The notes beneath the pieces were generated by a model. It made no database searches. It saw only the letters and a program-made list of their open reading frames with translations, and had not been told where the DNA came from. Positions 15,965 through 24,600 of a DNA stretch of 32,260 nucleotides are shown one piece after another. The stretch's first letter is position 1. Every line of letters begins with the position of its first letter. A program made the position numbers and the translations under genes. The stretch is from Kiritimatiellia bacterium (GTDB taxonomy: Bacteria; Verrucomicrobiota; Kiritimatiellia; CAIQIC01; Lenti-01): contig JAFYAC010000039.1 of NCBI GenBank assembly GCA_017540905.1, positions 1-32,260 of the forward strand. The letters run 5' to 3'.

Positions 15965-16437
15965 ACGGGGATACCTGCAAAACTGAGTGCTGTTTACCAC
16001 GCTTTGCCCCCCCCGTCAATTCCCTTGCACGCTTTTTCCCGAAAAAGAACCCGAGGGTGCCGGCGTGCAGGGCCTCCGGCACCGGAATCAGGGGGGAACA
16101 TCTTCCTGTTCGACCCCGCCTTTTTCAGCCCCCCTGCAACGCATTGTGACGGAAGCATTGGACTTGGAAAAGCGGTTCTTGGCGCGGTCGTGGAATTTGC
16201 GGGCGAGGCTGGAGTAGCGGGTTTCGTTCGCCAGGAAGGCCTGGGAGTTGCGTTGCAGGGTTTCCTAGCCCGAGTTTCCATATTCGACCTCATTTTCAAT
16301 TTTTTTCAGGGAGACGGCAGTGGTGTTCCCAGGAAATTCGCATGTCCGGCCTCCCGAAAACCGCCAAAACGGCGTGTAGGGCGTGTAGTGAAGACATACC
16401 CTCTTGCGTCACCGAAGGGACGTGCGAGAATGCCCCC
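15965..16437. other. Intergenic mosaic between tRNA-Pro and the IS fragment
   Basis: No credible gene here. The part next to the tRNA shows nothing recognisable. A broken copy of the nifJ 3' end covers 16150-16268. The remainder up to 16437 probably includes the left end of the IS, with a short direct repeat GGCGTGTAG near 16372-16388; I could not identify a terminal inverted repeat. Confidence 0.6.
16150..16268 (-). pseudogene. Broken copy 1 of the nifJ 3' end
   Basis: The minus-strand frame reads SQAFLANETRYSSLARKF, then HDRAKNRFSKSNASV, matching the NifJ C-terminus (YQAFLANETRYSSLARKF, then PDRAKDLFAKSEAAA). Base identity to 21700-21815 is roughly 80-85% by eye. The copy starts and stops inside nifJ sequence and lacks the last 20 or so codons. 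It has no start codon and is not expressed as a protein on its own. It marks the tRNA-side edge of the glycosyltransferase mosaic. Confidence 0.85.
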
Positions 16438-16830
16438 ATGTTTCTGCGAGCCATCAAACGACACAAGGACGGAAAGCTCCATCTCTACTGGACGCTGGTC
16501 GAGAACGTTCGCGTCTGGCGGCGCGTGTTCCAACGGCGGGCGCTGTACCTCGGTGAGCTGAATGATTCGCAGCGGGCGGAATGGCAGCGGGCCATCGAGG
16601 CGTTCGACGAGAAGGGGCGCGCCCGCCAGCTCAAGCTCTTCCCGTCCGACCATGCGCCTGCGGAGGACGGCGGCGGGGACATCGTGAAGGTGCAGATGGA
16701 CAAGCTGGCGGTGAAGAACCTTCGCAACTGGGGGGAGGTGTGGCTGGGGCTGGAACTGTGGAAGCGGCTCGGCCTGGACGAGTTCTGGGCGCCGCGCCTC
16801 TCTCCGGGTCTGACCCCGCACCAGATCCTA
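16438..16830 (+). pseudogene. Truncated transposase, IS1634-like (N-terminal fragment)
   Basis: The ATG at 16438 opens MFLRAIKRHKDGKLHLYWTL, followed by VENVRVWRRVFQRRALYLGELNDSQ and WGEVWLGLELWKRLGLDEFW. This matches the N-terminal region of large DDE transposases of the IS1634/IS4-like group. Only about 125 residues remain of an expected 500 or so; the DDE catalytic domain is gone. The similarity ends near 16800-16830, where the sequence passes directly into the 3' end of the oppositely oriented glycosyltransferase gene. It is a dead remnant. The family name is from memory of the N-terminal pattern. Confidence 0.75.
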
Positions 16831-21631: not shown

Positions 21632-21653
21632 CGGGGAAGGCGCGGAGGGGCGC

Positions 21654-24600
21654 CTACTTGTAGAGTTCGACGAGCTTCTGGAGGTGGTCGAAGCGGGCTT
21701 GGGCGGCGGCTTCGGACTTGGCGAAGAGGTCTTTGGCGCGGTCGGGGAATTTGCGGGCGAGAGAGGAGTAGCGGGTTTCGTTGGCCAGGAAGGCCTGGTA
21801 GCTGCCGTCGCCGGGTTTGCTGGAGAGGGTGAAGGGGTTCTTGCCTTCGGCCTTCAGCGCCGGGTTGAAGCTGAACAGGTTCCAGTAGCCGGCCTTGACC
21901 GCCGCTTTCATTTCGTCCTGGCAGTGGTTCATGCCGCCTTTGACGCCGTGGAGTTCGCAGGGGGCGTAACCGATGATGAGGGACGGCCCGGGATAGGCCT
22001 CGGCTTCGGCAATCGCCTTGACGGCCTGGGCGGGGTTGGCGCCAAGGGCGATCTGGGCGACGTAGACGTAGCCGTAGCTCATGGCGATCTCGGCCAGGGA
22101 TTTCTTGGCCACTTCCTTGCCGGCGGCCGCGAATTGGCAGACTTCGCCGATGTTGGAGGCCTTGGAGGCCTGCCCGCCGGTGTTGGAGTACATCTCGGTG
22201 TCGAAGACCATGACGTTGATGTCTTCGCCGGACGCCAGGACGTGGTCGAGGCCGCCGAAGCCGATGTCGTAGGCCCAGCCGTCGCCGCCCATGATCCAGA
22301 CGGATTTCTTGGAGAGGTAGTCTTTCTTTTCGAGGATGGCCGGGGCGTCGGGGCAACCCGCCGCGGCGGCTTTTTCGAGTTCGGCGACGAGGGCCTTGCA
22401 GGGTTCGACGTTGCCAAGGGTGGAGTTCTTGGTTTCGATGAACTTGGCGACGGCGGCCTTGAAGGCGTCGGAGGCCTTGTCGGACGCGGCCATCTCTTCG
22501 AGTTTGGCGATGAGGGAGTCGCGGATGTATTTCTGGCCGAGGTGCATTCCGAGGCCGTGTTCGGCGTTGTCTTCGAACAGGGAGTTGGCCCAGGCGGGGC
22601 CTTTCTTGCTATCCTTGTTGACGGTGTAGGGGCAGGTGGCGGCCGGTCCGCCCCAGATGGAGGAGCAGCCGGTGGCGTTGGAGATGTACATGTGCTCGCC
22701 GAAGAGCTGGGTGATGAGGCGCGCGTAGGAGGTCTCGGCGCATCCGGCGCAGCTGCCGGAGAACTCGAGGAGGGGCTGGTTGAACTGGGAGCCCTTGGGG
22801 GTGAGGGGGTTCATGCCGGCGTCGTCCTTCTTGGAGACCTTGGCGACCATGTAGTCGAAGACGGGCTGCTGGGCGGCAACCTGGGTCTCCTGCGGGACCA
22901 TCTGGATGGCCTTGGTGGGGCAGACGGTGACGCATTCGCCGCAGCCCATGCAGTCGAGGGGCGAGACGGACATGGTGAATTTGTATTTGCCGGCCTTGGG
23001 CTTGGTGTCGGCGAGTTTGGCGCCGGCGGGGGCCGCGGCGGCTTCCTGTTCGTCGAGGAGGTAGGGCCGGATGGTGGCGTGGGAGCAGACGAAGGCGCAG
23101 TTGTTGCACTGGATGCACTTGGCGGGATCCCATTCGGGGACCATGACGGCGGTGCCGCGTTTTTCGTAGGCGCTGGCGCCGAGCTCGAATTGGCCGTCGG
23201 CGCAGTTGGCGAAGGCGCTGACGGGGAGGCTGTCGCCGTCCATGAGGGCGATGGGCTCCATGAGTTTTTCGACCATCTCGACGGTCTTGGCTTCGCCCTG
23301 GAGGGGGGCCTTGGGGGCGTCGGGGGCGGGGTTGGCCCAGTCGGCGGGGACGGCGACTTCGTGGAGGGCTCCGGCGCCGGCATCGATGGCCTTGCAGTTC
23401 ATGTCGACGATGTCCTGGCCTTTCTTGGAGAATTTGGCCACGACTTTTTCTTTCATGTAGGCGATGGCTTCTTCGGGGGGAAGGACGTTCGCGAGCTTGA
23501 AGAAGGCGGACTGGAGGACGGTGCTGGTGCGCTTGCCGAGGCCGATCTTGCCGGCGATGTCGACGGCGTCGACGGTGTAGACCTTGATGTGGTTGTCGGC
23601 GATGTATTTCTTGGCGGCGGCGTTGAGGTGCTTGCCGAGTTCTTCGTCGGACCACTGGCAGTTGATCAGGAAGGTGCCGCCGGGCTTGACGTCCTGGACC
23701 ATCTTGTAGCCCTTGACGATGTAGGACTGGTTGTGGCAGGCGACGAGGTCGGCCTGGTTGATGTAGTAGGGGCTGCGGATGGGCTTGTCGCCGAAGCGCA
23801 GGTGGGAGATGGTGATGCCGCCGGTCTTCTTGGAGTCGTACTGGAAGTAGGCCTGGATGTATTTGTCGGTGTGGTCGCCGATGATCTTGGTGGAGTCCTT
23901 GTTGGCGCCGACGGTGCCGTCGCCGCCGATGCCCCAGAATTTGCACTCGACGGTGCCGGGCGCGCTGGTGATGGGCGCGGGCTTGACTTCGGGGAGGGAG
24001 AGGTTCGTCACGTCGTCGACGATGCCGATGGTGAAGCGGGCCTTGGGGGCGTCCTTGGCGAGTTCGGTGTAGACGGCGAAGACGCTGCTGGGCGGCGTGT
24101 CCTTGCTGCCGAGGCCGTAGCGGCCGGCGGTGAGGACGACGTCGCAGCGGCCGGCCTCGCGGAGGGTGGTCGCGACGTCGAGGTAGAGGGGCTCGCCGAG
24201 GGAGCCGGGCTCCTTGGTGCGGTCGAGGACGGCGACCTTCTTCGCGGTCGCGGGCAGCGCGGCGAGGAAGGCGGAGCTGACCCACGGACGGTAGAGGCGG
24301 ACCTTGACGAGGCCGACCTTTTCGCCCTTGGCGGTCAGGTAGTCGATGACTTCCTCGGCGACGTCGCAGATGGAGCCCATCGCGACGATGACGCGGTCGG
24401 CATCGGGGGCGCCGTAGTAGTTGAAGAGCTTGTAGTCGGTGCCGAGCTTGGCGTTGACCTTGGCCATGCAGCGCTCGACGACGGCCGGCAGCGCGTCGTA
24501 CGCGCCGTTGCAGGCCTCGCGGTGCTGGAAGAAGACGTCGCCGTTCTCGTGGCTGCCGCGCATCGCGGGGTGCTCGGGGTTGAGCGCGTGGTTGCGGAAG

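Follow-up and report, generated by a model that had tools for sequence, protein, structure and literature searches.

Insertion with a long duplication of the target has been described for restriction-modification genes of H. pylori (Nobusato et al., 2000, as cited in PMC1643837 and PMC3031569). At icd of E. coli, insertion of e14 displaced the old gene end (165 bp, with 12 nucleotide changes and 2 amino-acid changes; PMC11148124), and processed fragments that entered E. coli by single crossover left partial lacZ duplications of 109-950 bp (PMC3240628). Here, a related arrangement is described at the 3' end of nifJ, the gene for pyruvate:ferredoxin oxidoreductase, in a 32,260-nt contig of a Kiritimatiellia bacterium (JAFYAC010000039.1; the whole stretch is called the window).

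Cargo behind nifJ is present in three genomes, with sugar-transferase-like genes in two and restriction enzymes in one. Repeated use of the nifJ end for gene addition, as the original prediction had proposed from the window, is supported by two same-genus genomes with different cargo and by a Treponema. We consider it moderately probable that these are insertions with long duplication of the nifJ end, in which an incoming tail and its cargo would have joined by homologous recombination and the old tail would have been displaced.

Copies of the nifJ 3' end in the window

Intact nifJ was located at 21654-25256 on the minus strand and encodes 1200 amino acids (Pfam POR_N, POR, PFOR_II, EKR and TPP_enzyme_C). 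The repeated unit is its final ~210 nt. Copy 2 (19167-19337, minus strand), a displaced tail identified by repeat search and BLAST, ends at the nifJ stop codon; copy 3 (16160-16266, minus strand), identified by BLAST, is a shorter displaced tail and is cut by an insertion sequence (IS) remnant. By ungapped repeat search, copy 2 matched nifJ 21658-21828 at 82% over 171 nt, and positions 16150-16251, at copy 3, matched nifJ 21704-21805 at 84% over 102 nt. BLAST against the window's own genome (G000; a draft of 178 contigs, 84% complete, in which the window contig is C37) gave 83% over 166 nt for copy 2 (E 2e-42) and 85% over 108 nt for copy 3 (E 1e-27), and besides these returned only two 34-nt matches, on contigs C150 and C24. 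The 34-nt matches were also found in two genomes of the same genus (G001 and G002), and short ones in G007 and G009 (alignment only). Both searches thus confirm the three minus-strand copies in one orientation that had been noted originally, and the similarity at 16150 and 19171 is above chance. The G000 assembly is fragmented, which leaves some room for an assembly artefact, but either this or chance similarity is extremely improbable given the E-values, the divergence of the copies from nifJ (15-19%, so they are not misjoined duplicates) and the same layout in other genomes.

Copy 2 matches nifJ over one further short stretch, 19378-19399 against 21840-21862 (23 gapped columns; none of 300 shuffles reached this score), and the duplication at copy 2 is about 209 nt long. 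Copy 2 differs from the intact tail at 31 of 168 nt; copy 3 is identical to it at 95 of 112 positions. The nifJ frame of copy 2 is open over the last 56 codons, as the original prediction had it, but 17 amino acids differ and the ratio of nonsynonymous to synonymous change (pN/pS) is 0.48, so that the copy looks partly decayed. Judged from the layout, the intact tail would be the youngest of the three and would not mark the oldest event, as had been supposed.

In a tree of the tails, all copies of the window's lineage fell into one clade (support 100/100). Copy 3 grouped with the displaced tail of G002 described below (88/92, not starred), in a tree of short sequences with a bootstrap that had not settled and three rows of unusual composition.

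Empty and filled arrangements in the same genus

The nifJ gene of G002 is 98.7% identical in nucleotides to that of the window, and a different gene lies between it and its own tail copy. Immediately 3' of nifJ, G002 carries a 635-codon membrane-protein open reading frame (ORF), followed by a second nifJ tail. The ORF had no Pfam or NCBIfam match; a crude count puts its hydrophobic segments at about nine, and it contains a WYDE motif of the kind present in GT-C enzymes. The displaced tail of G002 (locus L036, 12985-13178) is a 195-nt duplication with one stop codon inside. It runs collinearly into the stretch 3' of nifJ in G001 (91.9% over 273 nt, including 78 nt past the stop codon), and the match resumes for 61 nt at 87% beyond 104 nt found in G001 alone. 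In G001, nifJ stands directly before the terminator that in G002 is seen behind the displaced tail; that is, a single copy is present without insert.

The terminator after intact nifJ in G002 is another one, common to the window (flank score 85, shuffle maximum 34). In the window it appears as a terminator-like hairpin recognized by eye ('type A'; 21600-21653, minus strand), and homology between window and G002 extends past the nifJ stop to 21606. Compared with each other, the two terminator types scored 20-29, close to the shuffle maxima. Since the displaced tail carries the G001-type terminator and intact nifJ a different one, the old end in G002 appears to lie behind the cargo. As judged from these flanks, G001 and G002 are an empty and a filled member of a pair, G002 having its old end and old terminator behind the cargo and a nifJ with a new end. 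Neither the copies in the window nor the Treponema locus L064 yielded an empty counterpart.

Gene order is poorly kept in the genus: a search with 19 kb of the window in the two same-genus genomes, which are also fragmented, gave long matches in gene-sized blocks that lay mostly on different contigs. Differing genes 3' of nifJ are therefore weak evidence by themselves, and it is the displaced tails that count.

Displaced nifJ ends in Treponema

L064 is a Treponema contig from goat reticulum with cargo behind nifJ and then a displaced tail. The cargo encodes an AlwI-type restriction enzyme, a RES-domain protein and two D12-class adenine methyltransferases. The displaced tail corresponds to the last 520 nt of nifJ and is broken by a 77-nt insert. 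Between the two ends, 39 of 520 nt differ; 36 codons are changed synonymously, and no amino acid is altered over the 172 codons compared. Because the ends differ only synonymously, they were probably those of two working nifJ alleles brought together, one of them imported, and not a gene and its decaying self-copy. In the window's genus the copies seem to be older, given the pN/pS of 0.48 for copy 2 and the stop codon in the G002 copy.

The displaced end of L064 is closer than the intact end to the nearest relative, L062 (273/287 versus 257/287 positions), and its coding part also to L047, L055 and L066; over the 20 relatives shown, for which compared lengths differ, it was nearer in 13, farther in 5 and tied in 2. 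The history of L064 is mixed, and either of its ends may be the old one. At L046 (6416-6549), a 62-nt hairpin-rich insert lies between two copies of the nifJ end, each of 36 nt and with three differences between them; the repeat was found as 34 nt in a scan of 80 nifJ loci (described below).

Tandem self-duplication of the nifJ end, followed by decay and random insertions, would agree with the tandem order of the copies and with the single clade formed by the lineage's tails (100/100). It would not be expected to give purely synonymous differences at the L064 ends, nor a G001-type terminator on the G002 copy with the other type on intact nifJ, and is considered unlikely.

Genes between the copies

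Outward from nifJ, the window carries a methyltransferase gene, an ORF of the GT87 family, copy 2, an ORF with GT2 and PMT_2-like parts, the IS remnant and copy 3. The methyltransferase (20821-21501, minus strand; 226 amino acids; Pfam Methyltransf_23/11) is predicted to depend on S-adenosylmethionine. The GT87-family membrane glycosyltransferase ORF (19267-20736, minus strand; PF09594, E 9.6e-12) reads with its C-terminus into copy 2 and ends there, in a frame other than that of nifJ, so that the ORF tail matches nifJ. The GT2 and PMT_2-like ORF (16631-19012, minus strand; 793 amino acids; PF00535, E 7e-17; PF13231, E 1e-6) runs with its final part into the IS remnant and had no match in G001, G002 or G003 (the last from another genus of the same family). 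The original assignment of these cargoes was reversed: the interval from nifJ to copy 2 contains the methyltransferase and GT87 genes, and the interval from copy 2 to copy 3 contains the GT2/PMT-like ORF and the IS remnant. The cargo also does not always consist of glycan genes, L064 carrying restriction-modification genes. Apart from the IS, the nifJ tails and the shared terminator, the window cargo at 16300-21650 had no match in G001-G003.

The IS remnant (16264-16691, plus strand) has other copies on G001 contig C301 and G002 contig C45, at 84-85% identity, and its ORF had no Pfam or NCBIfam match. It starts at 16264-16270, at the edge of copy 3, and truncates that copy on the side of the nifJ 5' end; because it cuts copy 3, it would have arrived later. 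Capture by an IS that moved or joined the cassettes would fit the contact between remnant and copy 3. Against it stand this later arrival, the surroundings of copy 2, in which only this IS and the nifJ tails match elsewhere in G001-G003, and the lack of any Pfam transposase among six L064 proteins tested; such capture seems quite improbable.

Frequency of displaced gene ends

Copies of ORF ends were scanned in 451 kb with 206 ORFs of at least 200 amino acids, comprising the window, nifJ and flank loci of relatives, two other contigs of G000 and 20 stretches of G002. Six tail matches were obtained. Window nifJ accounted for two, G002 nifJ for one, the GT87 ORF for one through its end in copy 2, and a single pair of whole-gene paralogues in tandem for the remaining two; mid-gene segments used as a control gave 2 matches, from the same paralogue pair. 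A second scan at the same threshold covered 80 nifJ loci of other genomes (one being G001; 1.13 Mb, 545 ORFs of at least 250 amino acids), with at least 2 kb downstream of nifJ in 70 and at least 5 kb in 55. Its sole tail match was nifJ of L064, in a sample where nifJ was the search target and often lay mid-locus, which favors detection of nifJ copies. Partial tail copies are not background in the sampled sequence.

L098 and L118 have a second tail that is 44% identical and comes from a further nifJ-like gene. Across the class, a nifJ-tail match was found in 121 of 146 genomes, with extra tails in short frames in G000 (2), G002 (1) and G100 (1, reaching the contig end), and second full-length genes in G086, G113 and G132. 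The nifJ end is not a general hotspot in E. coli, where 5364 places were found in 5362 of 5426 genomes (second places not opened). Other direct repeats in the sampled contigs were set aside, six loci being judged by eye, from ORF content, as intergenic, dispersed or within genes. Also noted were a ~130-430 nt repeat in several copies over 3.7 kb beside ORFs (L193, 1431-5113; G002 contig C90) and two tandem paralogues of G001 of about 1080-1097 amino acids, sensor kinases by eye (L037, 9797-16960).

Proposed mechanism and alternatives

In the proposed mechanism, incoming DNA would carry a nifJ 3' end followed by new genes and would recombine with resident nifJ through the common 3' end. The nifJ frame would stay intact, its tail and terminator now being those of the incoming DNA, and the old tail, accompanied in G002 by the old terminator, would be pushed beyond the cargo and start to decay. 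We infer the direction and order of these events. Joining would be by RecA-type homologous recombination and not by an integrase; candidate routes are a single crossover of a circularized fragment and recombination with homology on one side only, the far end joining illegitimately. Insertion at most other places in nifJ would break the gene, which can explain why 3' ends are seen as insertion sites. Displaced tails, different cargoes, an insert-free arrangement in G001 and allele-level divergence of the Treponema ends are all present in the assemblies.

The length of the duplication differs by event: 36 nt in L046, 195 nt in G002, about 209 nt at copy 2 and 520 nt in L064. Homologous recombination is preferred because the cargo ORFs tested revealed no integrase, the lengths span 36-520 nt, a cargo gene is cut by one of the borders, and entry by single crossover has a precedent. 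Integrative element and homologous exchange had been put forward as equal alternatives; with no integrase in the tested cargo ORFs and with lengths that differ between lineages, the balance leans to homologous recombination.

A possible, though not probable, alternative is that integrase-driven elements use the nifJ end as attB and restore it, their integrase genes having been lost or acting in trans. Restoration of the tail in frame with displacement of the old tail would be accounted for, as would duplications of 195-209 nt, close to the 165 bp of e14 in icd (PMC11148124), and the borders of G002 and copy 2, which lie within ~14 nt. Against this, Pfam searches of cargo ORFs from the window, G002 and L064 (small cargo ORFs not tested) detected no integrase domain, and a PF00589 profile search of G000-G003 gave no match on the nifJ contigs (serine recombinases not searched genome-wide); the PF00589 matches in G000 lay on C9, C14 and C115, with none on C37. 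The two Treponema borders also differ (520 and 36 nt), and the border at copy 2, into which the GT87 ORF reads, is not a clean element end.

Mobile-element collections likewise speak against integrase elements, as no relative of the window or Treponema tail was found in IMG/VR and phage and plasmid matches were at most 66% identical. In the phage collection, 12 records matched the nifJ tail (best 66% identity), of which three were examined (H1, H3 and H12). For two human-faecal contigs (L210 and L211), 5 of 7 ORFs tested matched ordinary bacterial families, 2 had no match, and no second tail was seen; given these families and the single tail, both were taken as bacterial DNA and not as phage. 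A Salmonella phage record has host genes beside nifJ. Among plasmids, 33 records matched the nifJ tail, all below 60% identity, and a search with the whole interval returned only 189 nt of nifJ tail in one record.

Several observations weigh against insertion by homologous recombination with displacement of the old end. G001 may have lost an insert by excision instead of never having had one, and homology between the G001 and G002 flanks stops ~140 nt past the stop. Copies 2 and 3 are without a clear old terminator, the best comparison being copy 3 with the window nifJ flank (score 27, shuffle maximum 26). At L064, the intact gene is followed by a terminator similar to those of L062 and L066 (scores of 62 and 47 against shuffle maxima of 24 and 25), whereas the flank next to the displaced copy matched none clearly. 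The duplications of G002 and copy 2 begin at nearly one position (within ~14 nt), in keeping with a fixed crossover site. The tail sequences are short, and their tree has an unsettled bootstrap and an unstarred grouping of copy 3 with G002. ORF heads gave 16 rows in the first scan and 6 in the second, due to paralogues and to dispersed repeats located at called ORF starts, so end copies as such are not unheard of. Shared element ends upstream of the G002 copy and copy 2 were also considered and dropped, as 2 of 300 shuffles scored as high as the apparent likeness.

Probable origin of nifJ and possible exchange of its end

NifJ of G000-G003 is 44-49% identical to long matches in other members of the family, and after G001 the best matches to the nifJ tail were from Spirochaetota (mostly Treponema; 81-85%), with Lachnospiraceae lower. 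Because of this low identity within the family and the similarity of the tail to Spirochaetota, nifJ of these four genomes was probably acquired. Between the window and G003, the last 90 codons of nifJ contain 3 synonymous differences, where stretches of 90 codons average 15.6; 4 of 628 such stretches are as low. The low synonymous change at the nifJ end fits an exchange of tails between lineages; local codon constraint is also possible.

A broader reading, which we regard as rather doubtful, is that the nifJ end of a Treponema-type lineage is a portable landing pad: integrase-free cassettes of nifJ tail and cargo would circulate among the bacteria carrying this nifJ, perhaps even from one phylum to another, with entry at nifJ by homologous crossover and exit by recombination of the direct tail copies with each other. 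If so, the low number of synonymous changes that separate the nifJ ends of the window and G003 would record this traffic.

Neighboring features

The tRNA-Pro block (15878-16024, minus strand, in the window) and nifJ are on different contigs in G002, where the block lies beside the phosphofructokinase gene. About 560 nt (15319-15877) separate the phosphofructokinase gene from tRNA-Pro in the window and are missing in G002, where both blocks abut. Upstream of nifJ, at 25313-25490, and also at 11172-11290, TTTTCCAAnnATTGGAAAA-like palindrome arrays are present, with dozens of similar places in G001 and G002. A 71-nt GC-rich repeat occurs in three copies at 25482-26298, also upstream of nifJ.

Comparison with described systems

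The filled and empty arrangements and the allele-level divergence are evidence for gene gain beside a core metabolic gene without a recognizable integrase, in bacteria known here only from mixed-sample assemblies. If general, conserved gene ends would serve as homology anchors for the addition of glycosyltransferase or restriction genes, and searches for such events could use displaced gene ends as the signature. Searches of the open-access literature gave no report of nifJ tails as insertion points.

As with e14 in icd, a gene 3' end is restored by a slightly different incoming end and the old end is displaced; unlike e14, a prophage with an integrase gene, the nifJ cargoes are of 2-6 kb, with no integrase gene detected in the cargo ORFs tested. 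Homology-facilitated illegitimate recombination or single-crossover entry also places partial gene-end duplications (109-950 bp) beside new DNA, although those events (PMC3240628) were laboratory plasmid events at lacZ and the nifJ mechanism is a proposed one. Insertion with long target duplication in H. pylori is similar in that cargo lies between long, variable direct target copies, which flank the inserted DNA in G002, the window and L064, in that it is revealed by comparison of related genomes, and in the restriction-modification cargo of L064. Unlike the H. pylori case, a single gene end serves in several genomes from two lineages, nifJ is kept intact, and the cargo includes membrane glycosyltransferase-like genes.

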